Assembly (NCBI GenBank): GCA_963920665.1
Contig: OY987270.1
Span: 20,238,019-20,302,018 of the forward strand
Direction: 5' to 3'
Length of the DNA stretch: 64,000 nucleotides
Origin: Straminergon stramineum
Lineage: Eukaryota > Streptophyta > Bryopsida > Hypnales > Calliergonaceae
Below the pieces are notes generated by a model. That model made no database searches and was not told where the DNA came from. It saw only the letters and a program-made list of their open reading frames with translations. Below are positions 27,040 through 61,666 of this stretch, piece by piece (position 1 is the first letter of the stretch; the number at the start of each line of letters is the position of its first letter). A program made the position numbers and the translations under genes.

Positions 27040-27504
27040 GGGGAGCCGACCCATTCCTGACCATTTAAGTGTTTAGACTAATTTGAAGGTCGTCCTCTTG
27101 GGGGGGTAAATTTTGACATGTGTAGAAAAACAGTCTGCATGGTTTCCATAATTTTCCAAATTTGTCTTCCTCAAAGCAAGCTAACTATGAATTAATAAGC
27201 CAGAGATTCTATCCCTCCCATACTGGTGACATATGCGTTGGTATTCCGCTCATAGGTTGGAAACAAAATGGACAATGCTTTATTACTATGATGGAAAACT
27301 ATATCACAAAGTTATGTTTTCAATGAACTCCTCATAATGTGGTATGTAAATTTGGCTCACCGCCAAGTGTCATCTTACCAAGTAGGAATATAGTTCCCAA
27401 CTATTGTGTGTCAAAATTGATCATTTATTTCTTTCACATTGTACGGAAATAGAATAGCATACTTTGCCAAAATGGGGGAGTGGTCAGGAATGGGTTGCCT
27501 CCCC
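27040..27504. mobile_element. MITE with 24 bp inverted ends and TA duplication
   Basis: The left end GGGGAGCCGACCCATTCC and right end (reverse strand) GGGGAGGCAACCCATTCC continue as TGACCA and match at 22 of 24 positions. Both are flanked by TA (27038-27039, 27505-27506). The 465 bp interior has no ORF. Size, short inverted ends and TA duplication are typical of Stowaway/mariner-type non-autonomous elements; the family assignment is inference. Confidence 0.7.
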
Positions 27505-27506
27505 TA

Positions 27507-32135: not shown

Positions 32136-32260
32136 GGTTGCTAGCATACGAGCTTGTGAGCATGAGCTTGTGAACGGGAGAAATAAAAGTGGAAAAAAAG
32201 AGCGAGGTACCCATGTCCGTGGTTGTACCTATTACCGTGGCTCCACTAAATATGGAATTT
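32136..32260. repeat. Left terminal inverted repeat of element 2
   Basis: GGTTGCTAGC starts the element, followed by CGAGCTTGTGAGCATGAG and, 80-110 bp in, CCGTGGTTGTACCTATTACCG. It matches the element 1 end (15990-16112) in inverted orientation along about 120 bp. Confidence 0.65.
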
Positions 32261-32449
32261 ATTGAAAGGTTATTTCATTGTTTTCTCAATTTTGAGTGAT
32301 CTATGAACATAAAAAGGAAAAAATACTTTGACATTAAGTTTGCATCCAGGAGAGGGTTTAGGGTATACTTAAAACCCACTCATCTCTTAGTTTCTCACAT
32401 TGGAATTCTTTTGGAAAAACACTTTGTTTAGGGTGATATTCCTTTGAAA

Positions 32450-33320
32450 TGGAACCATTTTATTAGTCGTGAAGAGTCTCTGGGTCATGAGAATATATTT
32501 ATCCTTTGACACTCTTTATTTTTTTGGACTCTCTCTACATGATGTGGATATATTTTTCATTCTCACCATTTTTTGGGTGTTCCAAGTTTAGGTGGGATTG
32601 ACTTGATTTTCTCTTTGAATACTAACACATGAATACAATTGTGTTGTAATGTTGAAATTCCTTTTTGTTCATGAAGACAAATAGTCAAAGACGTGGTTTA
32701 GGTGTATTTTGTTCACACTCAATATATTTCGATGGAGAGCCTCTATTGTTCTAATGTTTTTTCTCACCCTTTTTTCCTCATGAAGACTCTCGTGTCGTTG
32801 CAATGTAATTTTGTTTCACAATTTTTTGGGCATGAAGATTCTTGTGTCTAGGGTATGATTTTGGCACACCCTATTTCTTTCATGAAGTGTGGACTGCTAT
32901 TATTTTTTTGCAAACCCTAGTTTGTTTAGGAAGATTCTATTGTTATTGTTATGTTCATAATTTATCACACATAAGATTTTCTCATGGAGACTCTTCTGTT
33001 CTGGTAATTTTTTTTCACTCCCTATTTTTTTTCACTCCCTATTTTTTTTCATGCAGACTTTTTGGACTTCTGGCATGAATGTAATTTACTTCCTTACATC
33101 CATTTTTGGTGGTTTAATGTTTAGGGATAAGTGTATAGACATTTTTATTTTACCATCTATTTTGGGATAAGAGACTATGATTGTTGTGAAATTTTTTTTT
33201 TGTTCCAAACCCTATTCTAATTAGGAAGATTCTTGTGTTGGAATAATTTATTCTTTGACCCCCTATTATATTCCACGAAGAATTCAAGGATAGCATAATT
33301 AGGGCTTAGGATTTTGACAC
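32450..33320. repeat. Subterminal imperfect tandem repeats of element 2
   Basis: Repeated blocks of about 60-70 bp have the form CCCTATTTTTTTTCATGAAGACTCTTGTGT, written here with single-base variations and gaps. Each block carries a CATGAAGATTC or CATGGAGACTC. The same kind of block occurs inverted at 14690-15200. Subterminal repeats of this sort often bind transposases; that role is inference. Confidence 0.5.
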
Positions 33321-33939
33321 CAAATTTCTTCTTATTATAAATCATTTGTTACTATGTATAATTATTTTAATAGAACCTATTAGTTCTAGCTCAAGATCTA
33401 TGATTGGTATTAGGGAATAATTTCTAGCACTTTCCACACCCAAATGTCCTTCATAAGACATTTGGGTTGCTGGAAATTTATTTTAATTTTCTAGAACTAA
33501 TCATTTCAAAAAGACATTTTAGATGGCGTGATTTGTTTTTTTATTTTATCTAATAGGGTTTGGGAATTTAATACTATAATTTTTGTGAACTACTAAATCT
33601 TTATCATAGGGTTATTCATTAGATATGATTCATTACTTATTCTAATTTTGGGTCCACCCCATTTTCGAGGATGAACCCACTTCGCTTGGTGTGAATATTT
33701 CTTTCTTTTTGAAAATATATATTTTTATTTAGACACCTCATCAAACACTTCGCATTTGGAATAGTGTACATTGATTTCACTTCTTCAGACCCTACAATAG
33801 AATTTTTGACATGGTACATGATACTTGACTAGAAGAGAAAATGAATCACACAACATGTAGCCATAAAAGACACAAAACCAATCATAAAGAAAATCAAAAC
33901 ATAATGGGTTGACTCATAAGATATGTCAATCTCATGAGC

Positions 33940-36900
33940 CTAAGTCGAAGTAAACTCTGTCGCAGAATCCATGTCACTAGAAGAATTTGTGGTCTCTTTT
34001 CCCTCGGATGCTGATCCATCTATGAATTGTAAGACATTTAAAGCATATGAAGGGTTACAGTGTTTGGGTTTTGAAGTACCAAACTCCGCAAATGCTGAAG
34101 CTAGTTGCTCTGCATACACTGGAAGATCGAACGTTTTCTCTGGACTCAAGAGAAGTCTTCTTCTCTTCTTCACTACATTTGCGGACATCAATCCCTCACT
34201 GCTATAAACACAAATCATTGAATGTTAGAATCGTAAAGCATTACAATTACCATGCTGACCAATAATTAAGAAATGGAGAAACTTACTTACTAGGTCTAGC
34301 TCGGTGAACGAACTTGCGAGGTATTATGATCATGGCATTTGGATCCTGTCATGCTACTATTGCAGGCGCTTCGATAGTCGCAACTATTGCGACAGGAGGA
34401 GTGGTCTTTTTCATGGGCTCAAGGATAGATGAAAAAATTGTCTGATCCGACTCCAACGCCACAATGTGGTGTCCTGTTGCACGACATGCTATAATGGAGG
34501 CGCCTAAAAGAAAACCCAGAAATCAATAGCTCAATGGTTTAGGGTATGACATAAAAATTGAAAACCAACTTTTGAAAAGCCAAACTAACCTGTAGATGTT
34601 GTGCAATCGAGGACCAAGTCTCCCTCATTAGTAGTTCTTTCAATTATAAACTGGATGAATCGTGCGTCCTTCTCTCGAGCCCCGCGCCAGGGCATTTGAT
34701 CCATGTTGTTCATCAACATAGAGTCCTCAGTGGTGTAATTGATCAACAAGTCATCACGCTTGAGGTCAACTTTGGCCTTCAACATCGTTGTCGAGCGTTT
34801 GAAGAAGAAGTTGGACTTCCCTTTTGCACCTAGATCTTTTACTAAGAGGGTGATGCCGAACTTCAGAGTCTGCAAGCAAAAACAAGACATATATAAAGCA
34901 GAAGTTCAAGAGAATTATGAAATGAGAAATGCAAACAAAAGTTTGAAGAATGTATAAAATCGAACCGTGCTAGTTTTGTCAATAGCGGACGTCAAGTGCA
35001 CTCGATTCATGCCCATCTACTCTTTCTTTTTCACCATGTTGGGGTACTCTTGACATAATCCGGCAATGGTGCTTTTGGCATCCATGCTCCATGAATGGAA
35101 CACCACAATGCAACCGTGATCCTGCAAATGCTTTTTTGCAAAGAAAAATACTTGATAGATCATGTTGTACTCTGGATTTGAGTTCCAATAAGGCACATGA
35201 TTTTCTAGAAAGGACACCCCCGGCACTGGCAAATTCTCTTGGCAGTCGAATAGCATGAGGTCAAATCCTAGCCATTGATTGACCACCCCATTATACACCC
35301 TAGCCTTTCCTACCGCCATCTGCCATAACAAATTCAAACTCATGAGTCCTTATCATGTAGAAGGTGTGATAATGTACTAATATAGTGAAACTTTAGATTA
35401 CAAAATAATACAATTCATTTACCTTTCCGAGAAAGTCCATGACTTCGGTGTAGCAATTTGGACCCTCATTGATTTCATTGTCAACAACGTCTACAATAGA
35501 GACATTGAGCACTAATTCCTCCGATGTCACGTCATCATCATCACCTATGGCAATCACTTGTGTGCCTTGGGTGACCATCTCTTCGGTGAACTCCGGCAAT
35601 ATAGCCTTCCTCTTCATCCCATTGTGTACTCCAGCTTCCATTTGTGAGCCTTGATCTACCGTCAATGATGCCAGAACAACACCTTCTCTATCTTCTTTCT
35701 TCTTCCCTTTTGTCTTGGCCTTGTCGTCCTTTTCCTTTTCCTTCTCCTTCTCTACTAACTTGGCCACATGCTTTGCCTCCTTCTTCTCTCTGTTTTCCAA
35801 AGCAACTTGTATCCGAGCTGCTTTCCTCTTGTCATTGCTTTCCCTCCTCACAATGGCCCTCTCCCTTTGTTTATCAGTCAACCCTGCGAACTCGTCCACG
35901 TCCATGTCAATAGTTCCAATTCCCTCCAAAGAATTTTGCAATTCAACCTTTGACGGATGCATGTACGAGATCAGACAATCAATGTACCATCCGCCTCCAT
36001 TGAGGTGAGCTGTGGTATATGTTCGGAGTTGATTCGCAGTGTACATGCAATCTGCGAAACTACGGTCGAGAAAATGCGAGAGGAATGGAGGCAAGTCCTT
36101 TTTTGCAATTGCCCCTTTTGCCTCAAGCTCATGCTTGAAGTACGTGCAAAATAAGAAAGCATGACATCGATGATCAATAGAAAAATATCAAGGAAGGCAA
36201 GACTACTATTTCAACCTCTGAACTTCATGCAATACTACATGAGAACATTAATTTTAACTTAACCGAAATTTAGCTCAAAACATTACATTGAAGAGTTTAG
36301 AGGGAATAAAAATGTGGGGTCCAGTAAGTATTTGACAAACCACTGTCGGATCCGACAGTGGTTTGGAAGGTACCTCAAGGACCCCCCATTTCGGGTTCTT
36401 TCTTTCATTGTCTTTTTTCTGGTTTCTGGTTTTAGGGTCAAGAGAAACCTAGACATTATAGAATTGAAAGTATTGAAATATTGTAAATCAAATCATTAGA
36501 CAAGAATTTGAGCATACCAAAAAAGCACCCTTCGCACCGCCTGCTTTGACCCCTCACAAGTCATGAAATTGTCACTTTTTTTGAAGTAGTTTGTTCCTCT
36601 GAGGTGGGCCATGAAGCCTTGATCCCAAATCTTCCTCCTCCAACCTTCTATATATTCAGCCAAGGTCTCGGGTTGGAGTGGAACATTCATGTTGATGTTG
36701 ATTTGGTCTTGCCTCACCACGTTCTCAAAGTATTCTATAGTTGCATCTTCAATCTGTAAACACCCTAAATCATTTAACATTCAAAAAATACATATTGCTA
36801 TATAAAAACTATAAAAAAACATAGTTTTTTTCATTGAAAACTTTGAAGCTCTTAAAATCAAAATTATTACATATCAAATACTTACCCCGGCATACCAAAC

Positions 36901-38534
36901 GCATCTATTTAAGAAAGGGCCCAACAATGTCTCAAATATTGGCCTCGGTGGAAATCGTCTAGCATTACGTGAAGGTATCGAGGAGTTCCACCACTTTAGA
37001 AACTCGGTCTTGTGAAAAGGAGTGGTGTTGTATGTGGCCACCATTTGAAGTTTCTCAAGAGTCATCTTAGGGACTTCATTTGCACTCCAATGTTTCTCAA
37101 CCTACTCTCAAAAGATATAAAATGTCAATTACAAGTGGAACTCCATATGAGACTATTGTCATATATTGATAATGCATTTAGGAAACTTACTTCTTCCAAA
37201 AATTCCGGCTTATGTGCGGGATTAGCCATTACGACCAACTTCATCATCTTCACATTAAGTTTGCCTGTTTTCTCTTTTGCTCCACCTCTCATAGCATGTG
37301 CGAGTCCCTCGGGAGTTTTCTCTTGCTCTGGGGTGATCTCATTGTACTTTCGTAGTGTTGCATCCATTGCATGAGCTATCTCTTGCTGGACACATCCATA
37401 AATTAAAGAAATTCAAATAATTGAGGAAGAGAAAAGCCAATATAAAATACACCAAGCACATTCAAATCAATGTCAAAATATAATAGAATAACTATGTTCA
37501 AATAGAAGTCACAAAAAAATATTGTGATATTCATCCAAAAAATTCTCACCCGGAAAAGAATGTTGTGAAGACCTCCAGTGGCATAGAGTACCAAGTCTTT
37601 CTGGTTTTGGGGGCTCCACACCGTTTGAGCTCTGATGGCCTCAACATCTCGTTGAAGCGCTCGATGGGAAGTAGTCCATACTTTTGAACCCGATATAAAG
37701 TATGGACTAGATTGGTCTTCACATGTGACTCTTCGGTAGACCTACAATTTATAGAGAAAATATTGTTTAGGGTTTTGTAAGTCATATGCATCATTTTCAC
37801 GTGACATTCTAAATTGAATTAAATGCCAAATTCACAAAGCGTGCATATATTACTTACTTATTTATGTCATGCATGACATGCATGACCAACTTTGTCTTCC
37901 ACTTTGTATCTAAAATAATAGAGTCCATGGCATAGTGCCAATCCCATTCCTTTGAGTGCTTCCTGTTGATATGAGTCATCCACGAAAGGAGTCTGTGATT
38001 ACCATCACAAACAAAGAACTTGAGATTTTTCAAGAACCTCAACTCGGGAATGGCCTCAAGTTGGGCGTTGAAAATGGCATTCCTCTTTCTCCACAATGGA
38101 TCCCACCCTTCCATCTCTTCCTCCATCAATTTGGAACTCTCTTCGGCTTCATTTGTGGTGGTGACATAAAAAATTGTGGCTCCATCACGGTATCCTTTAT
38201 TGAATTCTTGCTCAAGCAACTTCAAATCACATGTTAGTGTTGGCCTCACCATAGGTATAGCCACCATTCGACATAGTGGGATTTGCAATCGAAACATATG
38301 GTCGGGCTTCATCCTCAAAGAAGCGATGGTCTTCACAGAATCTACCTTGTGATACGAGCGCAAGTCGTCCTCATCCAAGTCTTTGTCTTCTTCCTCCAAG
38401 ACATCTACCACCACATCCTCTTCTATGAACTCCCCTTCGTCTTCACCTTCAATGTCCGGTTGAGGGGTGTCATTCTTGATTTGAGTCTCCATAATGGTCT
38501 CATCTTGTGACAACAACGTGGGAGATACATCCAT
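33940..38534 (-). pseudogene. ParB-fold / DNA methyltransferase-like fusion gene, element 2 copy (nearly intact)
   Basis: Ten minus-strand exons mirror the other copy: 38534-37858, 37741-37550, 37385-37191, 37101-36886, 36753-36518, 36143-35423, 35319-34966, 34869-34590, 34503-34287, 34201-33940. Domain order is an acidic leader, a ParB/sulfiredoxin-like domain (MVRPTLTCDLKLLEQEF, FFVCDGNHRLLSW), an unknown middle, a Lys/Glu coiled coil, then a permuted N-methyltransferase-like end (FDLMLFDCQEN, GDLVLDCTTSTG, HIVALESDQTIF). It is close to intact. Defects are a one-base loss near 37557 compared with the other copy, a TGG-to-TAG at 35017-35019, a TGA at 34349-34351, and an acceptor reading AC instead of AG at 36144-36145. 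Family activity would be nucleic-acid base methylation, but the catalytic DPPY-type motif is replaced, so activity is doubtful even before decay. Confidence 0.7.
36313..36400. repeat. Palindromic mini-element with a perfect 30 bp palindrome
   Basis: TGGGGTCC on the left and GGACCCCCCA on the right enclose a perfect 30 bp palindrome at 36336-36365 whose half-site is CAAACCACTGTCGGA. It lies in the intron 36144-36517, matching the position of the 12094 member in the other gene copy. Confidence 0.75.
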
Positions 38535-38767
38535 CTGCTTGTGTATAACAATAAAAGATAATCACCATTCACGAATTTAGGAAAAGAAATGTATTTGAAA
38601 CTGAAAGATGCACATTCCTAATTTCTAACATGTATTCAAGGATTACGAATGCAATAACAAGTACAATTGAACCATTAATAAATTCAAAATAGGTAGAAAT
38701 ATCATATGAATTAGCCATGCAAGGGCATGAATCAATATGTTTACAAAATGACTCCAAGTGAATGGAA

Positions 38768-39253
38768 TCAATCAATGTCTACATCACCCTCCGAGTCGGA
38801 ATTGAGGTGAATGATGACAACCTCCTATCTACCTTGAATCGTGCTAAGATGACATTGACATGTGTCTTCCCACATTGGCCCATCCACAATAATGGATACT
38901 TGACTCTCTGAGCTATACTCTGTCTCAGAATTCTCAAGAGACATTACGGTTGTCCTGCATCAGGCAAACTCTAGCATTCTAGCAAGATATTCACGACATC
39001 TGCGCGCATTGGGGTCACTCACCCGACTCATACATGAGACCTCGAAAGCATCTGCAGCACGGTCAGCAGTATCCATGATATCATTGAAACTTACCACATC
39101 TTCCCCATCAACTTCTTCTTCTTCTTTGGATTCATTGGAGACCTCCATGGCTCTGTTTACTGGTGTGAAAGGTTGAGATGGTCCTGCTTCCTCAGCAATT
39201 GGGAGAGTTTGAGGTTGAAGAGCGGTTGTGGTTTTACTCCCTCTACGTCCTCC
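38768..39253 (-). pseudogene. Acidic ORF, element 2 copy
   Basis: This matches 9320-9802 in the other element. An acceptor-like ATAG precedes GGAGGACGTAGAGG, and the frame encodes a GRRGSK-type basic patch, then DVVSFNDIMDTADRAADAF, SCMSRVSD and an acidic tail ending DVDID at the shared TGA (38768-38770). Two premature stops break it, a TGA at 38960-38962 and a TAG at 38825-38827 where the other copy has CAG. It lies 230 bp upstream of the ParB-methyltransferase ATG on the same strand. Function unknown. Confidence 0.45.
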
Positions 39254-39884
39254 CTATTTTTTTAATCAACACATTTCACACAAATAGTAGGGTCAAAACA
39301 TAAATTAGAAAGTCAATCTCAAATCTACCAAAATGAAACCTCAACATCTTCACACAACAAAGTAATGAAACTTTGATTAAAAAATGGCCCAATGGAGTAC
39401 TTGTAGAAGTACTAATTGGAATTTGAAACATTCACAGACTTCAATACGAACATGCTTTTGTGTGAGGAAATCTTAGATATTAAAACATCAAAAATTCTGT
39501 TTATTTGAAAGATCTTACAATGTACAATAAGCAAAGATGTCAACATGCTGTAAGATGAAATGACCACTTAGGTATAGGTTTAAAAGATCTAGCATTCTCA
39601 ATTTTCAAAACAATGCATATGATTCTACTGACATGAAGCATCCTAAAATGTACACTTCTGAAAGATCAATATGTTTTCTCATATTCAAGAGAAAATTAGG
39701 GTCAATAGTAAAATATATAACGGTCAGTAGTAAATAACCAAAACAGAAGTAAGAGATCTTTCACATCAATCATTAAGATCATTGAAATCGGAGAATTAAA
39801 ATTTAAATATGAAGAATGGAGAATCCCACATGTTTGGGATCACAGGGTGAAGATTGTATAACAAAGAAAACAAAACCCAGATCT

Positions 39885-39960
39885 TGGGGGTCCAAGAGAT
39901 GATTGACATTGGACCGTCGGATCCGACACTATAGTGTGATGCATCTGGTGGACCCCCAAC
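39885..39960. repeat. Palindromic mini-element
   Basis: TGGGGGTCC and GGACCCCCA ends surround the core CGTCGGATCCGACA at about 39914-39927. Confidence 0.65.
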
Positions 39961-40104
39961 ATCCATGACATTAAGGACACTATGTTTTGGGTTTTCGTTA
40001 GGATGAAAATTGCTACACTAAATCTCCTTATGTTTTCAAACTGAAGCTAACAAAATATATTTGATTTCACTCTTCTAGATTAAAACAATATAAATATCTA
40101 TCAC

Positions 40105-40182
40105 ATTTGGGGGGTCCAGGAAGGGCTCGTGGAAGTACTGTCGGATCCGACAGTGGTCCAAAGTATCTTAACTAGACCCTAG
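40105..40182. repeat. Palindromic mini-element with a perfect 18 bp core
   Basis: The left end is GGGGGGTCC. The perfect palindrome ACTGTCGGATCCGACAGT lies at 40137-40154 and a right end AGACCCTA follows. Confidence 0.7.
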
Positions 40183-40639
40183 GTTCTTTTTCTTGTTTTC
40201 CAAAATAATCTCTCTCTCTTAAATCTAATAATATCTTTCATTACATTTGACTAGGACAAGAAAAATGACCAAATTAATTGAGATAAGGAAGTTGTTAAGA
40301 ATCCTTATTAATTGACGAGGTGAAGTCGGAAACTCATGAAATTAACTCTTCAAATATCAAATAAAAAATTTGATTAAAGTTCCCATATGGGATAAAGCCC
40401 AGTAATCAAGTGAAAACTATATTAGTCCACAGGTACTTCTAACAATGGTATTAAATCACCGAATTTTACCAAAAAACTTGAATCAGTATCAAAGGCAGAC
40501 GGTCCGCAAGGTTCGGACAACCTCGACCTAACGTTCGGTCAATCAACCAGCACTGAGCTGTACAGTAACTTATTTTATTCAATCATGCTAATTCCAAGGG
40601 GATCAAGCCCGTTGCCTAAAGGCATGCGACTTTCCCAGT

Positions 40640-42000
40640 CAAAGGAAAACTACTTCGTAGGGTCCTGTTGGCCCAACCGGTGAAGGCGTCGGATCCGACA
40701 GTCAATGAAGATCGCCTATGTGGACCTATGGGATTTGAATCCTAGACAAAGTGATCGATCAAAGTCGAACTCTCTTGATCTAGAGACTCATCGATCAAGT
40801 TCAAACTGTCTTGATTCTAAGGGGACTCGAGCCCCTACCCAAGGGCATGAGACTTTCACAGCAACAAAGGAAAACTTCTTCGTGGGGGTGCTGTTGGCCG
40901 AGATGGTGAAGGCATCATATCCGACAGTCAAAATGGATCGCCAACGAGGACCTACGGGATTTGAATCCTGGACAAACTAGTCGATCAAGTTCGAACTCTT
41001 TTGATTCTGGAAACTCATCGATCAAGTTCGCACTCTCTTGATTCTAAGGGGGATCCATCAATCAAGTTCAAACTGTCTTGATTCTAAGGGGTCCAGCCCC
41101 TGCCTAAGGGCATGAGAATTTCATAGCAACAAAGGAAAACTAATTCGTGGGGTCCTGTTGGCCCAGTGGTGAAGGCGTTGGATCCACAAGCAAAGTGGAT
41201 TATCGTACATCAACCTACGGGATTTAGGGTCCTGGACAAACTGATCGATCAAAGTTGAACTCTCTTGATCTGGAGACTCATCAATCAAGTTCAAACTGTC
41301 TTGATTCTAAGGGGGATCCTGCCCCTGCCCAAGGGCATGAGAATTTCACAGCAACAAAGGAAAACTTCTTTTTGGGGGTGTTGTTGGCCCAGACAGTGAA
41401 GGCGTCGGATTAGACAGTCAAAATGGATCGCGAGCGAGGACCTACGGGATTTGAATCCTGGACAAATTGGTCGATTAAGTTCGAGCTCTCTTGATTCTAG
41501 AAACTCATCGATTCAAGTTCAAACTCTCTTGATTCTAAGGGAATCCAACGATCAAGTTCAAACTGACTTGATTCTAAGGGGAATCCTGCCCCTACCCAAG
41601 GGCATGAGAATTTCACAGCAACAAAGGAAAACAAATTCGCGGGGGTGCTATTGCCCAGACGGTGAAGGCGTCGAATCCGACAGTAAACGAAGCTCGCATA
41701 CATCAACCTACAGGATTTGATCCTAGACACCCTAATCGATCAAAGTCGAACTCTCTTGGTTCTGGAAACTCATCGAACAAGTTCAAACTGTCTTGATTCT
41801 AAGGGGATCCAGCCCCTGTCCAAGGGCATGAGACTTTCACAGAAACAAAGGAAAACTACTTCGTGGGGTCCCGCAGGTCCAGCGGTGAAGGCATCGGATC
41901 CGCAGACAAAATGGATCGCCAACCTAAGTTTGAATTGTCTTGATTCTAAGGGGGATCGAGCCCCTGCCCAAGGATAGGCGACTTTCACAGGAACGAAGCG
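40640..42000. repeat. tRNA-like tandem array (six units, alternating spacing)
   Basis: Each unit starts with a stretch like a tRNA A box (TGTTGGCCCAGTGGTGAAGG). About 60 bases later it has a B-box-like GGGATTTGAATCC, then repeated TCGATCAAGTTCAAACTCTC/CTTGATTCTAAGGGG and AGGGCATGAGAATTTCACAG. The GGCC(C) of the A-box-like part occurs near 40671, 40895, 41161, 41386, 41652 and 41886. Spacing alternates between about 225 and 266 bp, so the array looks like a two-unit higher-order repeat. Most units also carry GCGTCGGATCCGACAG-like sequence where an anticodon arm would be. This suggests an expanded tRNA-derived SINE; no unit looks like a functional tRNA. Confidence 0.6.
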
Positions 42001-42441
42001 CACGCCCCAATAAACTCTGGAAGAAGAAAATCAAGCCGCTATTGATCCCAACCAACCACTCAACAATCACAGAATCTCATCAATAATTCTCCGAAGTTGC
42101 ACAATCCTCAATAGTGAACAAGTAAAGTATAATCGAATTACAAGAAAATGCAGACTTGCTGCAGAGGAGGAGCTGGAGTCGTTGTCTCCTGTCTACGTGC
42201 GTCTTCCAAGTTTCTACCGTCTCTCACCCGGCACCTGGTATTCCGCATCATCCTGGCTTCCTGCTCACCGAGAGTACAATGGAATTAGAAGGTGGAGTAA
42301 CCTCAGATCGGTTGAAAGATCATGAAAAAAGAGGCAGAGTGGCAGACTGGACGGTAGAGAGGATCGACGTCCGTAGAGACTTTGCGAATTTGGAGAGCCC
42401 AGACAGCCGATGCGAGAATCCAGGGGACGAGGCAGGGACTG

Positions 42442-42561
42442 CCACGCCGCCTGATCTGCCCGAGCCCCTGGGGTCCAAGATCCACGCCGCCTAATCTGCC
42501 CGAGCTTTGGGGTCCAGGGATCCACACCGCTTGATCTACTCGAGCAACAGGGGGCCAGATC
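42442..42561. repeat. 40 bp GC-rich tandem repeat, three copies
   Basis: Three units of the form CCACGCCGCCTGATCTGCCC followed by GAGC and a GGGGTCCA block start at 42442, 42482 and 42522. GC content is far above the surrounding DNA. Confidence 0.65.
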
Positions 42562-44765
42562 TTACGATGCTACTTATTCTGGCTGTAGGGTTCGCCAATT
42601 TCCTCTCAGGGATGTTACTCATTTTAGATGGATGTGTTTAGGATTGCCCTCCATTGGTTTAGTGTGGCCAAGAATTATTTCTTGTAAATCATCATAATTA
42701 TTGAAATTCTAATGAAGGATTAATTCAGTATAGAAGCTTCCTATATCAACAAAATTTCAAGCAGTAGTATAGCTATGAATGATGACGTAGAAAGTACAGT
42801 TTTATCAAAAGAAGCTCATATAGAGTTGTAGAAAATTCAATCATTGAATGCAGGTGTATTGGAAATTTTACTATTTATTAACTATGTGCTTCGTAAACGC
42901 AGGGATTTTATTTCCATTTCTTGTAGGCTTGTAGGGAGTGTCTAAAGAGATAATCACTAATAGGTGAAGGTATTTACATCTTTGGCAATAAATGAAATTT
43001 GCAATCTATTCCTCATTGATTTCATTGATTCATATAAATGGAGGATTATTCATCCAAATTGATGAAAACCACCCCAAGATTGACGTCAAATTACAGATGT
43101 CATCCACTTATAAGCAAGAATATTAAGCCAAATATTCCCTTTAAAAAAATTAATCGCTTATTAGCAAAAACTGTTCGCTAATCAAACCCCAAGGTGAAAG
43201 GTAATTCTTAGGGGTGAAATTATCCGACATATTGCCGAGCCCAAACACATTGGTCATCATGTGCTCTAATTTAAGTTCTAAGACTATTTGAATCCATTAA
43301 TTACATTCTTCTACAAATTGGTACTATAGAAGAGGTTAGGATAGACCTTGTTCTTTCATTGATTTCTACATTGTCATTGAAAGGAAAGATTTTTTATTTT
43401 GCAGGACTATAGTGTATCTTTCAATTATTTAATATTGGGTCCTTTTTTGATAAATATTTTATTTTATTAACTTTGATACTTATGAGAATTTGATTTGATT
43501 ATCCCTAAGTCAATTCAAGTTGGAGGGTAGAATTATTGAATATGGAAAGGTAAAGAAAGCTTCTCTAAAAGTATACTAGTAATTAGTTAACCAAAAAGTA
43601 ATTACAGCAACTTAGTCCTTTTGGGGGAAAAGGCATTGAAAACATACATTCGATGCTTGGAAGAATTCTTTCAAAGAATGATTTCACTGTGAAGGCATTC
43701 TTTTAAAATCTAAAAGAATTCCATATGTAATATGGTCTACAAATTACTGGCATCAATCTTCAAGGGGGTCTTAAAAGGTTTAAGAATGGTGTGCATAAGG
43801 AGCTCTAAAGGAATACTTCATGAAAGTTAACAATTGAAAATTGATTAATGAACACCTATGGGATTTTCAATTCCCTTGAAAACTTTCTTTTATTTTCAAT
43901 TTTTTCTATACCAGATAGTGAAATTGTCCTTTATTTTATTTTAGGATTCATAATATTTTTTATTTTTAAGATTACATTTTCTAAGAATGACTTACAATTT
44001 GTGGTCTTCTGTAACAAACACATCCTTCATTTTCTGGAGGACTTAGGGACCAAATATGCCTTTCTCTAAATTTGGCTCATTAGCATACAATGAATGTTTC
44101 TGAATCTAAATAGAAGTATACATAGAAAATGCAAGAATTAGATATGAATACAACCACAATCAAATTGTGTACTTGCCAAAGAAGGCTCTTGTAAGGGTGT
44201 GCTCATATGTTTTTATTCTCCACAAATCTAATGAAACAGAAGGACGAAGCATCTTTCTTAGTCCCTGCCTTTGAAATCCTTATCTTCTCTATTCTTAGCT
44301 GATTTGATTTGAATCCATTCAAAGTAGAAAACTTCTTTTTTTTATGTTCCTCAAATATCCTTAACATATACAAAATTCTACTTTTGTTGGCTAACGAAAG
44401 AGAGGCAAGGCTAAATTTACACTGTCATTGTCCAAAATTTGTGTTTCTTTAAAGACCTACTTCCCACAATGGCATATTCACTACGGAATGATGGCATACA
44501 TGAAATAGGATAAGTGCAATAGGAGAAGCTCAATGTTTTTGAAGGTAACTTCCACAAATGACTCATGTAAAGATTCTTTAATTAATGCACACAGGAACTA
44601 CAAGAGGCCTATAGTCATTTAAATATGGAGAACAAATTTTATGTGAACAATGGAGTAGAAAATGACATGAAGAGTTGAAGGGTTTTGAAACACATTTGTT
44701 CTTTGCTATCGAATTTCCATGAAATGCAATGATTGTGAACAAACTAAAGAAGAGGAATGATTTTG
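42562..44765. other. Non-coding stretch of element 2
   Basis: About 2.2 kb of AT-rich DNA with no supported gene. It may be intron or spacer between the small basic ORF (44766-45083) and the acidic ORF (38768-39253). Confidence 0.35.
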
Positions 44766-45083
44766 CTAGGTTCTTACACAAGTAGTGACCTCTTGCGGTC
44801 CTTCATCTTGTCCTCCTATTGTATCGTCCGACATCTCTTGCAATACCTCCAAGTCCTTCGCTCCAGCAGTGTCTTCCCCACTCCCATCTCCGGTGGTAAA
44901 GCGAAGTGCTTTGCGAAGGTCGCCCACTGTAGCCTGACCTGTTTTCGACATGACTTTCTTCCCTCGAGTCATTCTAGATCTCTGTAGTTCCTTACGAGAT
45001 GAGAAATACAAAGAGCGATGCCTATTTTTCCTCCTTCTCAATAATGTACTAGGAATGGACTTGCCCAAGTTCTCTACAAACAT
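44766..45083 (-). CDS. Small basic ORF, element 2 copy
   Basis: It is homologous to 4086-4451 and open over 105 codons. Conserved blocks are LRRRKNRHRSLYFSSRKEL, RMTRGKKVMSKTGQ, LRKALRF and DGSGEDTAGAKDLEVLQEMSDDT. A basic first half and acidic second half could suit nucleic-acid or histone contact, but I recognise no domain. A GTAAGA near the 3' end could be a donor leading to the acidic ORF downstream. It is read away from the transposase across a shared upstream region. Conservation in both elements is the main reason to call it real. Confidence 0.45.
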   Translation of the reverse strand: MFVENLGKSIPSTLLRRRKNRHRSLYFSSRKELQRSRMTRGKKVMSKTGQATVGDLRKALRFTTGDGSGEDTAGAKDLEVLQEMSDDTIGGQDEGPQEVTTCVRT

Positions 45084-45844
45084 GAAAAAGATGACTACAT
45101 GGAATCTAACACTCTAAAATCCAACAAGTGCTCAGAATTGAAAGTATGCAATGGCTCTACCTAGCAGAAATGGTTTCTATTTGTAAAGTTCAAAGGAATG
45201 GTCTAGAAGCATACAATGTCACAATGAAATTTTAGTGATGACAGAGGCTCGTGTTTGCAGTGACAAAGTGTTACATCAAAGCTAGCTTGCTGTGCTGTAA
45301 ACAATCATAGTTCAAGGCCAGCTAATCCATATGAAAATCTGACAAATTCCGTGAACTCCAATGACGTGCAAGGGGTGGCCACCATGCATTTATGAATCTT
45401 CCCAAAAAGGGTGCAGTAAAGGGTGTTAAAGGCAGCTTAGGAAAGGGTTGGCATGGTCAGAATTTGTAGTAGATGACGGTTAGTGTAAAAAAAGATTAAA
45501 TGGTTGGAGGGTTAGTACTTACAAAATGCGGATGACGACTAGTTGGCTACTGACAGTAATTTAGTACAAGTCAATTGCACTACATGTCAGTAGCTATTCA
45601 ATGTACATGGCGGCACATGATAGTATTGTAATTTAAGCAGATGGTGGCAAAGGGCTTGGCAAAAGTAGATTTGGAAGATCTATTCGTAATGACCCTAAAT
45701 GTTGAGTAGAGTACTAGTACTATTTCACAATTTGATACAATTGACGGTGATCAACCCATTGAGCTCCTTCAAATTCTACTCATCCTCATCCAGTGCTAAG
45801 GATTACGGGTCTCCATTTCATAACTCTATGCACTAGTTCTTGAG
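45084..45844. promoter_or_regulatory. Divergent promoter region, element 2 copy
   Basis: This non-coding gap lies between head-to-head ORFs and matches 3374-4085 in the other element. The upstream part of the basic ORF has a CTTTACAAATAG where element 1 has TATAAATAG, so the TATA-like site is degraded here. Confidence 0.35.
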
Positions 45845-47655
45845 ATGGCTTGCATTTGAGTAGACGGTCATGAAGTCCCTCTTATGTTTCCCATAGAGGA
45901 TGGAGGACGTGCTAGAGTCCTTAGTCACCTTCTCCACGTCCGATTTAGATTTGTAGAGTCCTCCATCTATGTTGAAGAAGAAAGGATGTCGGAGTCAGGC
46001 AAAGTGAAAGAATTTGTCCTTGTTGTCAAATCTGTAGAAGATGAAGGACATTGTTGGTACCTCTCCCTCGAGAACTACAGGGCATATGGACTCCCTCTTT
46101 CCATGCTGGATTCTTCCACTGAGATGTTGAGTCGGCAATCAGACAATTCAATAGTAAATATGCCATATATAGGACACGTTGTTTCACCTAGTGGAAGTCC
46201 TCAAATTCCTCAAGTTCTTCTGAAGCCTTCATTACTTCATGCCGTAAAGATAGAGAAATTAGATCCAATTATAGAACTATCTAGTGAATCAGATGGAGAG
46301 TCTCCTGAATTGACTGTCAAAAATTCAGGATGTTCTATTGGAACTACAATCAGTGGAAGGGCTCTATTGAACTCTACATTTCAGAGTCCATCAAGTAGTC
46401 AATTGCAATCCTCATTGCCTCGTCCTCTATTGCATCCGTATCCAAGCCACATAGTAAGTATAATAGATTGTTTGAAGAGACTAGCCAACATGCATCGATC
46501 TCGAAACGAATTGTCTATAATGGATTTTAGCGTCATGAAGCACCAGCATGTTTCTTTTCTTCCGGCAGTATTTGATGGAGATATCATTTTTGAAATACCA
46601 CCATGTTGCTCCACTTCGTCTTCATCATCGGCGCGGAGCTTGGAAGGAATGGACAAGCGCTATGATGGACACCCATGGTGTAGGCTCATGACCACAAACA
46701 TCAACAACTCCGACAACCTCAAGTTCAGTAAGTCCCACTGTGCCGACCATCTTGCTTATGTGAACCCAAACTGTGATTATTTGAACAGAACTTCAAAGAG
46801 GAACGAAATAGAGTGGAGTGGCTTCACATCGATTCCTTTTGTAGTTGGAGATGGACCTCCCAAAGACAGTACCCTAGTTTGCAAAGTGTGTAGGAAACCA
46901 CCTTCATGTCTTAGCCCTTGCAATGCTAGGATATACTATGCTTTCAGTGACAACCTAGAAATGAGTAGGGCCGCTATTCACTTCGGAGAGCACAACCACC
47001 CGGTGGCGAAGGGCATGTACAGAGATTCTACAAAGGAAATTTGTGGACTCATTGAAGAACAGGTGGCTAGAACACCATCAGCTACAAACTCATCAATTGC
47101 TCTATCCGCTAGTAAAGAGTTCTTAACGAACTATCTATTTCACAACGGAGATGGAGAGGAGTTACTGAAGGGGGAGGAAATGGAGGTTATGGACCGCTTC
47201 CAATATCTCAGTAGTCCAAATATACGGAACGTGATCGCCTCTTTCCGCTCAAACAATCGAGGGGGGATCATTGACAACATTATGACTATGAAGAAGGAGT
47301 TGAAATTCGAATTCATACACGATAGCGTCTTCCCTGGGCAAGGGAAGGAGAAGGTTTATATCTTCAAAATGCTCACTAAAGGACCCGGAAGTGGAGTGGA
47401 CCTTGTAAGGCGCATGCAAGCCGGAGGTAATCTACAGAATGCGTGGTTGATGTTTGACCACATGAAGTGCGTGAAGGAGTGGACCACAATGGCCTGCCAC
47501 GTGTATGATGTTGAGTACAAGAAGGTGATGACTATTGCACTGTGTGATATGCAGTCTGAAAATACTGAGGTGCAAGTACAATTTTGGAGGAGCTTAAACA
47601 CTGTCATGGCACAACATGGAGTACCAAATCCAAACTTTAAAGGATTTATAGCAGA

Positions 47656-50600
47656 TGTGGCAGCATGAAATTCTAATTTTTTTGGTTTTACTTAGTAATA
47701 CTAACCGGATAGCTAGATAAGGGTATCTGGATTTGGTTAAGAAACCATAAGGAGCGGAAATAGAAGTAGAAAATAAGATAGCGGGAAGATCTACTCAATC
47801 TAGTTTCCAGAGAGTAAACGGATAGGAGCGGATGTCTAACCGGATAGGTGATGGACCGGATACCCTACCGAAACCGGATCCGGATTAGGTCGTGCTGAGG
47901 TAGCAAGGGGGTCCAGCCAGTATAAATGGTCTGGCCTGGCCAGTCGCACCCCTTTTCACTTTTTCATTTTCCAGCGCTTTCAAGCTCCTCGTGTCTGTCA
48001 GTTTCAGCGTTCCGTGTCAATCACTGTTTCGAAGGTTTTTCGCGATTGTTATAGTGTCCGCTACAAGTGTAAGTTTGGTTTCCGGTTGAGATCGGAGAGA
48101 GAAGGAAAGGAACGGGACGTGCAACTAGGAGAGCGACAGTAAGGTAGAATCGGAAAGGGTTCCGAGTAGCTCATCCGCGACCATGCCGTAGCTCAAGAGA
48201 ACTAGAGGTCATGCTAGTTCGTCGTTAGCAGTAGATGTCAAACTCCAGAAAGTAGTTCCGGTTATCCCTTTGTCAGAGGATACCCGAGCGGAACTCATGG
48301 ATGACTTGAACTCCATGGGTTGTATAGGGTTTGCAACCAAGCCCTGGGGGTTCAAGGAGGAAGTTTTCGTCCGGGAACTCTCGGGTAAAGTGTCCAACGA
48401 GTGGGATAATACGCTGAGAGCGGTTCCGCCCCTCTAGACGGAAGAAGTCTAGAGGTCAGTTTACAGCTTCCGGCCGGGAGGATTTGGGATGGCCAGCCAG
48501 AAGGACGACTTCATCCGAGGCAAGTTTGAGGGTGCAGTAAACCCGAAGGACGGATACGCCATAGAGAACTGTAAGGATGAGTGGAAACGCCGACTTTTAC
48601 AATTCCTCGTTCCGATCCTCCATCCGGAAAAACCGACAAGGGTAACCATTACCCTTGCAAACACCATTTTCGAGGCCCTAAGAGGGGACCAGAAAGTCGA
48701 CTGGGCACGGATCATTTCCAATCTGGTGCTCCAGTTAGTTAGTAGGGTTGGAAAGAGTAGAGCAACTCTAGTGAGCCCCTACTTAATGCATCTCTATCAG
48801 TCCCATCAACTCTTGAATGACAGAGAGGACGAGGTGTGGAAGAATCAGCAAGTAGTGCTAAGATATGGAGAATCAAGATCGGATCAGGAGAGCGAATCTG
48901 GTTCGGAACTGGGAGAGGATTCGGAGTCGAAAGACGAGGAGGCGCCAGTGTTGCCGGTCAAGCATCACAAGACTACCTCCCCCAATAAACGAGGGACACC
49001 ACCTGGTCAGAACGCTCCAGCTCCGGAAGGGAAACCGGAAGAGGAGAAGGCAGTGGATCCCAAGGACCCGTTCCAACCCCTGGTGAAGGTCCTCTATGAC
49101 ATCTGGATGGATTGGGAACGCAAGAGAAGGATAGTCGTAGCCATCGAGCAGTTGGTGGGAGCAGCACCCGACCGGGAGCTACCGAAAAAGGTGGCGGGTT
49201 GTATCTCTGATCCAGTCGAGGCCCGGAAGCAGGAAGCAGAGATCCGCCGGCTACAAGAGGAGGTGGATCGGATGAAGACGGAGATCCTGGTGCACAAGGA
49301 GAACTTCGCAGCCACCAAATCTATTGCAGAGAATGCTCGGCAAATGATGGAGCAAGTAAAGGCCACGTTCGAGGAGACCGGAATGGCCCTCACCAAGGCC
49401 AAGTTGTTTGACGAGCGGGTGCACGAGGAGAAGAAGCTATCTAGTTCCTAGATGGTGAAGATTCTCAACGACTTTGCCGAATAGGTAGAAGCGACAATGA
49501 AGGAGGCATGGAAGGCAGCGGACTGGATGGAGGAGAGTACCTGGATTCTGTCGGGAGCAACTTGCTCTCGCGGTATTCGACTCTCGGATATCTCCCTCCT
49601 GGATTCGTTCCCGGAAGTGACAGCAGGAGAGGGGAAGGATACGACCCCCAAGTCCAAGAGAATGACCCAGGCCGGCACGCCTGGAACCGCCATCGACTTG
49701 GACTCACCACCCGCGTCCATAGAAGGCAATCCGGTTCCTCGACCTCAGGAGGTAGAGAGGAGTCGGAACCTAAACGAGGTTTTTGAGCAGATGGACCCGG
49801 GAGCGGACAGCGTGACCATCGGATCGCGAATAGGGGCTTAGGATGTACAGAGTAGGTAGAATAGGAACGGATACAGAAATTGTTCCGATCCAGTTGGGAG
49901 TAGGTAGGACCGGAAAGTCTGACCGAGATGGCGGCGGAACTTTCGTGAGTTTTCCAGCCCATTTGTAACTTTTTGAAATGTATATAGTCAACGCCCGTGA
50001 GGGACGCTGAGAGTCTTCTTTTTGCAATTTCTGTTGTACCTTTGTATGCGCTCTGTTGTTGTGTGTGTCTCCTAGGCTTGGCAGGTTTGCATGATGTGGA
50101 GTTAGGAAGGCGTAAGGCAGAGTTGTGATTAGATTTCTCCCCTTAGTGTGATAGTTTTCGATCCTTAGTGTGTGTGCAGGTTGTGTAAGTGTTGGGAATG
50201 TATTTCAGTGCCTCAGCAAGATCTAGGATTTTGAAGTTCCAGGTGAGATAGCCGCTGTTAGGCTAGGTGGATAGGGAGGGTATCCTTAGTCGCGCTAGAA
50301 CTCTTGGACGGGTAGTCCGGTTGAGTGTCCGATCTTCTGAGAGGTCTCACCACCATAGTTGGTAAACGGAATGATCCTAGTTACTGTTGGAACGGACGAG
50401 TACACTTGTAACCACCTAGCTTCGCGCGGGTAGGAGCTGGCATTGAGGTCGTTGTAGTAAGAACGGATCATACGGGGGATCTCTGTGTGACCTGCATTCC
50501 AGATTGCTATCGGGATTGCTGTGAGGGATCAAACCGGATTCAAGTTAGTTAGGAAAGGAGAGGAGAGAACAGTGGGTCTTCAACCACTATAATCCACAGA

Positions 50601-51014
50601 AGGAGTGGTGGGCCGACCACTCAAAAACCTAAGCGGCGAACCCTCTGATGGTCTAACAGAGGCAAAACTAAACCGGAAGAGTATTGAGGAGATACGGGAA
50701 CCAGCCGGAGCGGATTGGTTCAGAGCAGTACTAGGACTGGAATTGTTTAGGTCCTGGAGATTGGGAGAACTGGGTTAACTAGAGGATTGAAAGATTGGAT
50801 GGGAAGTAATCCGGTCCTAATCCTCTTGGTGGTTGGTTGTTTCCGGTGATAGATCTAGGACCGGAAAGTAAATTTTAGAGGGTGAGAGCGCTTACTCGCC
50901 CAAATCAAGTAAATACTTCACAAAATCTCGCGGGTTCGATCTTTAGAGTCACTTCGTTATGCTGTAGAGTGATTTTTGTGAACATAATAGGGAATTTACT
51001 TATCCTATGCTGCG
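47656..51014. mobile_element. 3.36 kb insertion in the transposase gene
   Basis: ATAGCAGA is present on both sides (47648-47655 and 51015-51022). The uninterrupted homologous copy in element 1 shows that the reading frame was continuous before insertion. The inserted DNA begins TGTGGCAGCAT and its far end, reversed, begins CGCAGCATAGG, so very short inverted ends sharing GCAGCAT are possible. I see no long direct repeats, which speaks against a full-length LTR element. Its base composition is much richer in G, C and CCGGA than its neighbours. A TATA-like TATAAATG lies at 47921 before the ORF at 48183. The superfamily is uncertain; an 8-9 bp duplication fits hAT or Mutator-type elements. Confidence 0.8.
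48183..49841 (+). pseudogene. ORF of the insertion, interrupted by TAG codons only
   Basis: The frame from the ATG at 48183 to the TAG at 49839-49841 holds 552 codons. Inside it are five stops, all TAG, at 48189, 48435, 48450, 49449 and 49482, with no TAA or TGA. Each would read as Gln if it were CAG. The central part (48489-49100) has a globular region with IRGKFEGAVNP, KDEWKRRLLQFLVPIL and KVDWARIISNLVLQLV. This resembles the uncharacterised 'putative plant transposon protein' domain found in many plant repeats. Acidic and Pro-rich linkers follow, then a long coiled coil (EIRRLQEEVDRMKTEI) and a Ser/Pro-rich tail. No integrase, reverse transcriptase or DDE core is visible, so the element looks non-autonomous. 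Confidence 0.6.
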
Positions 51015-51547
51015 ATAGCAGAGAGTGCTATGGCCAATTGGAATGCGGTCCGAATTGTCTATGGCAGCGGATCTGCCAATGTGGAAATGGAGAATCGTGA
51101 GAGGACCTATTTGCTGCATTGGAGTAGTTCTCTTCATAAACACTCCCAAAAGTTCATCAAGGAAGCGCTTCAACAACAACATATTTCTCTGTGTAAGCAA
51201 TACAAAGATTCCAAGAATATGGATCAGGCAGAGACACGTTATCTAGCAATTCGATCATGGTGGCTATCATCCGGAGCTGCAAATGAAGAAGTAATTCATC
51301 ACTTAGACCATTGGCTAGCATTCTGGCATTTTCGATATCGACAATGGGGAGGCTTCATGGACATGGTGAGTAAAATATTTATTTCTATGCATAAGGAGAT
51401 TTCAGTTTTTGATGGTGTCACACCATATAATGCAAAGATAAACTTACGTTGCTCCATATATTTTATTTTGTTTTCCAATGATGTAGAATACCAAAAGAAC
51501 TTCATTTTATAATTTGAAATTCTCTGAGCTATTCTTCAACGGTATCC

Positions 51548-51638
51548 AGAAGAGGGGGTCTACGAAACAATAAAAGAGCATATGTCGAGTCCGACGAAAC
51601 TCTTCATGGTGTTTACTAGACCCCCTCTTTTGGGTGTC
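51548..51638. repeat. Palindromic mini-element in the transposase intron (element 2)
   Basis: GAGGGGGTCTA and TAGACCCCCTC ends surround a diverged core TGTCGAGTCCGACGA at 51583-51597. Position and ends match 943-1038 in element 1. Confidence 0.65.
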
Positions 51639-53279
51639 TTTAAAGGAACATGCAATTCTTGAGAGTCCTCATGTAAGATGTGAGTTCTTCCTTGTACCAA
51701 GAAGTTGAAAGAAGATTGTGTTGCTGTATTTTTATATAGTCATATAGGTGTATTTGAAATTGTCTTTGAATATCGTTCATTTTATGATAAGACATGTTCA
51801 TTCGACCACAAAACAATCTATAATTACAAATATCTGTGAGGTTTTCAAAGTGAAGTGCTAACTGTTGCCTAAACTTGTGTTCATTTTTAGAAATTGAATT
51901 TGGAGGAAATGCTGGACCTGCCATCGTGTAATTTATCTGAAATAGTCCATAACAAGTGGCTCCAAATGTCCGGAAAAAGAGGAAACAACTTATTTGATGC
52001 GACTTGTGACGACAGTATTCGTGCTTGGATGCAAATGACAAATTATCGAGCATACTTCAGAGGTCATGCACATGGCTCTGGTCCATCGAAGAACGAATTG
52101 AAGTTGAGGGCTGCCACTCGAAGTAGAGATCCAAAGAAAATTGCTGAAGCGCTCAACACTTTACTTGGAGCAGAGGGGCTTCGAAATCGATTACCACATT
52201 TAGAAGGAGAAGAGATCTTTGGAAGTACAAAGAGGAAGTTGGATGTACCCATAGGAGATGCTGGAGATTCACATAGACCAGACAAAGTGAATTTCTCTCA
52301 ACCGCGTGTGCGTACGAGGTCCACAACAAATTCTATGGAGATGTTGGGAGGGAAAGGTAAAGAGGTGGATACAAATATTTGTCCACATGTCACTGTTGCA
52401 TATGAAAGTGACTGTGATACATCAAAGTGGCACATTGCAAGGATTAGCCACAAATCGAATGCTAAATGTCACGCTCAACAACAGGGGTCAAATATCAAGT
52501 GCTCTGCCAAAATTGCAAGGGGAAGGAAAGGTAACCCTGCTCTAACTTATCGAGGTAGAAAAATAGATTATGGTACTAAGAGAGAAGTGGTGGTTGACTT
52601 CTGGTTTTGTTGGGATGACATTGAACGTTGTGTGAAAGGTTCGAAACAAAAATGGATAATAGATTGGCCAGCTATGCCGGAGGTTTGGCCAGTTCTATCA
52701 AGGACACACCTCAGTCGGGAAGAAACTCTACTCTTGCAACATGCGAGATTTCAACTCCAACAACGCCCTACGTTGTCACCACGTCGACTTTTCAACATGT
52801 CAAAGATTTTCAAGACTGCCTTATTTGACCAACCACCCCCCCCGAATGCAGATGCATATCCAACAATAAGGAACAGCCGAACTATTCGGAGGATTGCAAA
52901 TGCACCAACTACAAAGCAACGGAACAAATGGGAGAGTGCAGAAAACATTAGAGGGCAAATCCTAGAAGTGACCTTACTCCCCCAACCGGGCCTAGGTGCA
53001 ATAGTCTCACTAGAGATAGGGATAGACCCTCACAAAAATGTCTACCAAATTACAATTGGCATGTTCCCCACGTGCACATGCCCTGACTTCACAAATATGG
53101 TTGTTTCTGCTATTGGAGGTCGACAACAATACGTGAATTGCAAACACTCTTACTACTTGTATAGGTACTTCTGCAAGATGGATGTCAATGAAGACAAATT
53201 CATTCATGCACCTAGTTATAGCTTCAATGAATTGAAACTCCTTCTAGTTCGAGCTGGAATTATTAGAATTCCCGAATAG

Positions 53280-54566
53280 GCATGGATTCCTTTTCAAGAA
53301 CACTTCATTTGTATTGTATTCATTTACATATGTTATGATTCAAATGATTTAGTGATTTTGGAATTGAAAAGGTCTCCGCATTTCCTAAGTATTAGAATAT
53401 ATGTCATTCATGAAGTGTTTTGAAGCATGTTCCCGTGAATGATCAGAATTTGTGATCATAACTTACTATCGCACATATGAAAATCTATTTAATTCAATTC
53501 ATTCTATATTTTGCCTCCGTACTTCATTTTTTTCTGGATTCGTTTGTCTCAGTTGTCTTTCTTTTTCTTTTCAATCTTTTCTTATTTTGGATTATCCTTC
53601 CCATTTTTTGTCATCTTAATTTCCTTGTCCTTAACCTTTTTTTTATATCCCTTGCACTTCTAATTTGAAAGTTTTTCGTTTCCTTTTCATTTCTTCTTCC
53701 ATTCTTTTTTACCAAACTTCCAATTTTGCTTCCATTTTCTTTAGATTTACTACCCATTTATGTCCTCACTTCCCATTTTATACTTACTCTCATTTTCTAT
53801 TCCTTTGCTTCCAATTTTTTGGGCACTATTTCTATTCATTTGAATCCTCACTTTCATGGCTTGTTTTTTTCATTTCTTTCTAGAACATGTTCTATCTTTT
53901 ATAACTGACTTGTTTCTATAATTTTCTACAAATTCAGGTCACATGTAAGCAAGTGGCATCAAATTAGATTCTACCTAAGATTAATTCTTACAATTTAAAA
54001 TTATTGAGTGCAACACGCTTACAAATGAGAGTGAGCTTTCTACCATAAGGATATGTCCTACCTATGTCACCCTAAACCCATCAATTGCCAACTCACCCTA
54101 CACGTGCCCTCTTGTATTAGCGCATGCTGGAAATTCTTATACATATGCAATACTTAGGAGATAGGATTCTCTGCATGAACTAAAGTGAATCACAAAATTA
54201 TGATTCACTATTTCCAAAGTGACATGAGTTTACTATACATTAAGCGGTTTACATATTCTCTACTGTAGTTAATAAAGAAATTCTTCGCCCTATGCACAAA
54301 ATTTTGCAAGCCTGATGCATAGCTCCCTAAAATCGTAAACCAAAAAGTGTAAAATCTTATCACAATCCACAGTCATAGGATACACGGCCATAGGTCACTA
54401 AGTTTACTACAAATAGTAAGGTTTCCTCAATTTTTCCTAACAAAAATGAAAAAAAAAAAAAATTCGTCAAAAAATCTCCAAAAAATAGGGTTTGGGGGCT
54501 CACCGCTCACAAGTTCCTCGCTCGCAGCTCGCAAGCTCACCGCTCCAAGCTCGCACGCTAGCGTCG
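53280..54566. repeat. Right terminal region of element 2
   Basis: Downstream of the transposase stop is a T-rich region. From about 54365 comes CCACAGTCATAGG with CACGGCCATAGG, then GGCTCACCGCTCACAAG with stacked GCTCGCA/GCTCACC units ending GCACGCTAGCGTCG at 54566. This mirrors the left end at 32136. The weak ORFs in the T-rich part are low-complexity and not supported. Confidence 0.55.
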
Positions 54567-61380: not shown

Positions 61381-61666
61381 AAAGGACCTCTATATTATAA
61401 CTCAAGAATGTAGGCAAATTATGTGGGCCCATATATGACACCTCGGAAAGCATGTTCTCAGAAGGACTAACACGTTGTGGGCCAACAGTATTACGACAAT
61501 GACTTCAAAGATAGGGAACAACATAATGAAAGCCTTGAATCTTTTATGGCGGGCATATCCATTTTTCATGAAGGTTCTAGAAGTTATATACATCTGCTTG
61601 GAGAGTATGGATTTTTCATAAGACACCACTGAGTCGCAAAAAGTACCTGCGTATTCTGTGAGCAGG

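Follow-up and report, generated by a model that had tools for sequence, protein, structure and literature searches.

Elements and their ends

The stretch of DNA analysed here (the window) comprises 64,000 nucleotides of Straminergon stramineum (Bryopsida, Hypnales; assembly GCA_963920665.1, contig OY987270.1, C8:20238019-20302018). Two related elements are present in it, A (-1616..16115) and B (32133..54569); BLAST of the window on itself shows them in opposite orientation and 80-87% identical across matching gene stretches. Both are nested inside a diverged third element, D (-2823..76552). Judged from their sequence, these are giant DNA transposons with two main genes, one for a predicted transposase and one for a long accessory protein that resembles ParB near its N-terminus and DNA methyltransferases (MTases) in its C-terminal part. 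The matching inverted GCTAGC ends and the second copy that an earlier, sequence-only reading had described for B are confirmed, the second copy being A, whose far end (-1609) falls outside the window and was reached in sequence fetched from both sides.

32133..54569: element B of 22.4 kb, with ends of the GCTAGC type and a 10-bp target duplication that has decayed (TCGTACGTAC/TTGTATATAC)
1..16115 in the window, continuing to -1616: element A, 17.7 kb in total, inverted relative to B, exact 10-bp target duplication (AAACTGCCTC)
-2823..76552, spanning window positions 1..64000: element D, 79.4 kb with the nested A and B, 9-bp target duplication (CTATGAGCC)

In the six elements of which both ends were read, the termini consist of seven bases followed by GCTAGC, with one base off at the left end of the small element E; at B, the left end reads CAGGGTTGCTAGCATACGAGCTTG and the right end, as reverse complement, CAACGACGCTAGCGTGCGAGCTTG. 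A third end pair, at -2816 and 76545, encloses A, B, and a diverged transposase. The target duplications of 8-10 bp that the same reading proposed to look for are present: ten of ten bases match in A, E, S (3.8 kb), and F, a fourth large element of 19.1 kb read on another contig; nine of nine match in D at the shared offset (ten of ten if one end is shortened by one base); and seven of ten match in B, where all three mismatches are C/T or G/A. As a control for chance, 20,000 25-mer pairs were drawn at random from the region, and 17 showed an exact match of at least ten bases. Matching inverted ends combined with a target site duplication are the features of a terminal-inverted-repeat DNA transposon.

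Genome-wide census of the ends

The assembly scanned for ends amounts to 326 Mb in 59 contigs, and the end motif GCTAGCNTNCGAGC occurs at 240 places (121 + 119), compared with 12 (6 + 6) for the reversed-pattern control. Pairing was analysed for the first 100 of the 240 places, on C1-C3, where 24 pairs of neighbouring ends lie within 40 kb, 13 of them facing inward, 1 outward, and 10 in the same direction; random placement, which used a guessed length for C2 and let C3 end where the list of the first 100 ends, gave a mean of 0.86 inward pairs and a maximum of 5 in 2000 trials, against the 13 observed. Twelve of the 13 inward pairs span 14.0-29.6 kb and one, S, spans 3.8 kb. Three of the 13 were examined, F and S in full and H in part (its transposase half, which is 62-71% identical to the B transposase).

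Each of the four large elements whose full sequence was read (A, B, D, and F) has both the transposase and the ParB/MTase-like gene between its ends, the two genes being divergent and each pointing towards its own end. This arrangement bears out the giant two-gene element described before. The accompanying expectation that such ends always enclose the methyltransferase gene holds for these four; it fails for E (1.1 kb, 108412-109505 in locus L007), which has ends of this type with a perfect 10-bp duplication beside them and shows no match to the transposase or to the ParB/MTase-like gene, and partly for S, which retains the 3' parts of both genes and therefore looks like a deletion derivative. 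No ParB/MTase-like gene was seen outside any ends in the DNA read, a statement with no genome-wide protein search behind it. Specifically, the gene at 18.7-24.3 kb (gene C) was considered as a stray methyltransferase outside ends and rejected, since the D ends and their 9-bp duplication surround it. A sample of 20 × 10 kb of C8, together with loci L002 and L005-L007, gave no match to the transposase or the ParB/MTase-like gene nor, at the setting applied, a GAGC-rich GCTAGC end, the E ends in L007 having emerged with looser scans only.

The end pairs at C1:19090306, 19171493, and 47346835 are near-equal in length (19117, 19116, and 19091 bases) and may be recent copies of one element; the first of them was read.

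The transposase gene

45860..53279, plus strand: B transposase gene, in pieces 45860-47656, 51021-51509, and 51891-53276, split by a nested insertion
47657..51014: insertion in the B transposase gene, 3.36 kb, 8-bp duplication (ATAGCAGA) by eye, with its own 332-codon open reading frame (ORF); A is without the insertion
1..3358, minus strand: in-window part of the A transposase gene, with five in-frame stops in the main exon
68450-75831, beyond the window: D transposase, broken by stops and an insertion

The B transposase gene reported previously is present, in the split form listed above, and the F transposase has long open frames (720 + 462 codons). The earlier assignment to a Mutator-like element (MULE) with a SWIM finger was not confirmed by profiles: the target duplications of 9-10 bp lie within the 8-11 bp typical of MULEs, a SWIM-like CxC...CxH is visible by eye, and the RNase-H-like motif order is visible by eye only; no Pfam MULE transposase model matched up to E 10, and Pfam SWIM reached E 1.4 in D with no match in B.

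The transposase genes of B and D each bear a nested insertion (47657-51014 and about 70300-73650; L003), and the two insertions carry related ORFs (332 codons at 48453 and 274 at 70655), of which another relative lies in L013. An insertion at the same transposase codon in B and D was considered and rejected, the D insertion lying ~100 bp further on.

The ParB/MTase-like gene

9962..14552, plus strand: A ParB/MTase-like gene, ten exons with GT..AG borders, 1115 codons, three in-frame stops
33943..38534, minus strand: B ParB/MTase-like gene, ten exons, broken by stops and a 1-nt deletion
38795..39253, minus strand: B upstream ORF, itself broken, a possible extra gene or 5' exon under weaker constraint
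18761..24305, minus strand: D ParB/MTase-like gene, in pieces 31-50% identical to the A gene, broken by stops

The 1115-residue fusion proposed in the sequence-only reading is recovered by splicing the ten exons of A, with three in-frame stops read through; the B copy is interrupted as listed, and three stops lie in the F exons that were translated. The GT..AG introns of the A gene point to a eukaryote. As modelled, the three non-transposase ORFs of that reading resolve into exons of this single gene and an ORF of 152 codons that lies upstream.

Despite its decay, the gene is under purifying selection between A and B, and its constraint is no weaker than that of the transposase: dN/dS is 0.139 over 1100 codons (0.121 in the ParB-like region and 0.123 in the methylase-like region), 0.201 over the 720 codons of the transposase main exon, and 0.437 for the upstream ORF. 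This constraint and the linkage to the transposase make it unlikely that the gene is a captured passenger.

The C-terminal part matches methylase profiles of PHROG (E 3.8e-6 and 1e-5) and, at 20.5 bits and thus under the cut-off of 26.7, Pfam PF01555 (E 5.2e-4); this weak N6_N4_Mtase hit, the sole plausible Pfam match of the accessory protein, points to similarity with the N6/N4 methyltransferase family. The catalytic (D/N/S)PP(Y/F/W) motif is absent: the DPPY position reads DCQE in A, B, and F and DVPE in D, and motif I (DCT(A/T)(S/A)TG in A, B, and D; DCITSTG in F) lacks the usual first glycine. In an alignment by eye, a phage methylase reads TDEGDIVLDFAMGSGSTAVACRNTGRRFVGVE where A reads TDEGDLVLDCTASTGASITACRASGRHIVALE; the methylase part matches 235 phage records, with a best identity below 60%, and the one that was read is an ordinary methylase with DPPY. 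A tblastn comparison with viral_contigs confirmed no viral relatives; its queries were single sequences, which reach close relatives only. Because DPPY is replaced by DCQE or DVPE, catalysis appears unlikely, and the accessory protein is probably not a methylating enzyme, as far as motifs in broken copies allow this to be judged.

For the ParB fold assigned earlier, a DGNHR motif lies near the N-terminus, and the profile scores are marginal: PHROG ParB reached E 0.14 with the A protein and was reported for neither B nor D, and Pfam gave no ParB hit. Comparison with solved structures gave weak, chance-like matches only, and the structure model of B exon 2, with a mean pLDDT of 41.8, is too poor to use.

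Palindromic sites and tandem arrays

A tripartite palindrome, GGGGTC-N-TGTCGGATCCGACA-N-GACCCC, with a 14-bp core and arms at fixed distance, recurs in A, B, and F, where it lies in introns and in the stretch upstream of the ParB gene.

36310..36391: B ParB-gene intron site, core TGTCGGATCCGACA at 36344; same intron in A (12130), D (21411), and F (4268)
39883..41682: B sites upstream of the ParB gene (39915, 40139, 40687, 41403, and 41669), overlapping a tandem array at 40591-41923
51550..51626: B transposase-gene intron site, core at 51583 with three mismatches; same intron in A (982), F (16215), and H (2984)
7065..9205: A stretch upstream of the ParB gene, tandem repeats within 7065-7807, sites at 7344, 7472, 7956, and 9192
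24838..26404: D stretch upstream of the ParB gene, site at 24838, tandem array at 25252-26404 with sites at 26044 and 26277

Sites were counted in A (17.7 kb), B without its insertion (19.1 kb), D (39 kb), the flanks (54.6 kb), and a sample of 200 kb. At up to 2 mismatches, there are 5 sites in A and 6 in B, and none in D, the flanks, or the sample. D carries TCTCGGGMCCGAGA in place of TGTCGGATCCGACA, and its variant, with four occurrences of CTCGG..CCGAG, is absent from A, B, the flanks, and the sample; TCGGNNCCGA occurs once in A and four times each in B and D, and in neither flanks nor sample. Four palindromic sites are present in F and one, with changed arms, in the transposase intron of H. 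The positions correspond in part, namely in the ParB-gene intron and in the stretch upstream of the ParB gene, each shared by A, B, D, and F.

Over 15 chosen sites, which excluded 34439, 41403, and 41669 of B and which are partly homologous rather than independent, conservation is 0.91 in the core, 0.78 and 0.74 in the arms, and 0.52 in the spacers, with similar values over the 9 sites of A and B (core 0.91, arms 0.78 and 0.76, spacers 0.54). Tandem arrays of unrelated sequence accompany the upstream sites in each of A, B, D, and F, at 0.9-2.9 kb upstream of the upstream-ORF start. Within the DNA examined, the elements hold element-specific motifs clustered in noncoding regions, the type of arrangement described for VANDAL/VANC. 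CpG depletion, considered as a mark of silencing, is not distinctive.

A candidate anti-silencing system

Judged from its sequence, the element most probably has a sequence-specific DNA-binding system of its own, and the palindromes would favour sequence-specific recognition over self-methylation. Tentatively, and rating it somewhat short of probable, we favour an anti-silencing role for the accessory protein, as an element-specific DNA-binding factor without catalytic activity, a binding and a role that we infer from the features described above. The methylase-like C-terminus would have lost its catalytic motif and the protein would act without catalysis; its targets may be the palindromes (core TCGG-NN-CCGA), both those upstream of the ParB/MTase-like gene and those within introns of the two genes, and, once bound, it could keep the element transcribable against host silencing, in a VANC-like mode of action exerted by an unrelated protein.

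Several observations weigh against this explanation. None of the four ParB/MTase-like gene copies read (A, B, D, and F) is intact, the ParB profile scores are not significant, and no DNA-binding domain was recognised in the accessory protein. Synonymous divergence between A and B differs between the two genes (0.57 in the ParB/MTase-like gene vs 0.35 in the transposase), possibly reflecting a recombinant history. With 3 mismatches allowed, A has 6 sites, B 8, and the sample 0, and D and the flanks show 1 each; the B site at 34439 lies inside coding sequence, lacks arms, and is probably a chance match. No site was found in the D transposase intron, nor any palindromic site in S or E. Tandem arrays are not peculiar to the elements, since five of at least 100 bp occur in the 54.6 kb of flanks and others in 5 of the 20 sample loci. 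Lastly, perfect 14-bp palindromes of any sequence number 1.1-2.6 per 10 kb in the elements vs 2.05 in the sample; palindromes in general being no denser in the elements, the enrichment is specific to this sequence.

Alternative explanations

An unlikely alternative, and the one that survives best, casts the accessory protein as a transposition co-factor and the palindromes as assembly sites. A co-factor role has been suggested for MURB-type proteins, and the tight linkage to the transposase and the similar constraint of the two genes would suit such a function. Conversely, the palindromic sites nearest to an element end are 2.6 kb (A), 3.0 kb (B), and 24 kb (D) away, with none of the listed A, B, and D sites closer than 2.5 kb, and they occupy introns and the spacer between the genes. 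Moreover, S and E moved without internal sites, so that movement in trans does not require such sites.

It is quite unlikely that a host factor binds the palindromes as ordinary transcriptional or silencer elements with no connection to the ParB/MTase-like protein. Their clustering near divergent promoters and in introns is consistent with such elements, and their link to the ParB/MTase-like protein is a putative one; however, they are confined to the elements within the DNA examined, and their core differs between A/B/F and D at positions that largely match, as expected of a protein and its sites changing together.

Canonical ParB loads on parS sites, which are palindromic. By analogy, the accessory protein could be a ParB-family clamp that loads at the parS-like palindromes, spreads along the element, and physically shields it from host silencing. 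In this version the methylase fold would have been reused to read DNA without catalysis, and palindromes and protein would change together between lineages; we regard this more specific version as distinctly improbable.

An active DNA methyltransferase that marks the element, in line with the self-marking idea of the sequence-only reading, is very improbable. The protein is similar to beta-class N6/N4 methylases, has a motif IV-like stretch ahead of motif I, and is constrained in its MTase region; against this stand DCQE (A, B, and F) or DVPE (D) at the DPPY position, a motif I without the usual first glycine in the same four elements, and the breakage of all four gene copies, and the absence of DPPY in particular led us to demote active self-methylation. 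An origin of the palindromes as remnants of a fold-back MITE family inserted into an ancestor, which the inverted repeats of about 80 bp with GGGGGTC arms might suggest, is likewise very doubtful, given that paralogous copies preserve core and arms at constant distances but vary in their spacers, and that the flanks (54.6 kb) and the sample (200 kb) hold no copy at up to 2 mismatches.

Comparison with known systems

To our knowledge, anti-silencing by plant transposons is known mainly from VANC. In Arabidopsis, VANC21 binds short motifs that occur as tandem repeats in the introns and upstream regions of VANDAL21 and that change between families (PMC5735166). The elements described here share with VANDAL the combination of a transposase with accessory genes and motifs that occur as tandem repeats, in introns, and upstream and that differ between families; in contrast to VANDAL, their accessory protein is methylase-like with a ParB-like motif and is not recognisably VANC by profile, and their sites are long palindromes (PMC5735166).

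Phages and prophages encode ParB-CTPases fused to N6/N4 methyltransferases, often on mobile elements (PMC12704722). The domain pairing is apparently the same here, whereas the gene is eukaryotic and multi-exon, with 1115 codons, a long middle region, a candidate ParB fold, and loss of DPPY. Among MULEs, a SET second ORF is reported in 14 members of MULE-Phytophthora_1 (PMC6446971). The present elements are alike in being DNA transposons with duplications of 8-11 bp, a SWIM-like motif by eye, and a chromatin-related extra gene, and unlike in that their second protein is methylase-like rather than SET, in their much larger size, and in the lack of a Pfam MULE match. No description of a ParB/methylase gene in a eukaryotic transposon was found among the open-licence papers listed, which is weak evidence of absence.

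If the favoured explanation of an anti-silencing factor is true, an unrelated protein, apparently of bacterial ancestry, would act via palindromes, and the strategy would have arisen more than once; the candidate protein-site pair would be testable, both sides differing between lineages (A/B/F vs D). If the function differs, the elements would still present a methylase-like gene kept under selection in a eukaryotic transposon after the apparent loss of its catalytic motif.

Other features of the locus

Minus-strand ORFs at 58902-60365, inside D, resemble a CACTA-type transposase by eye.

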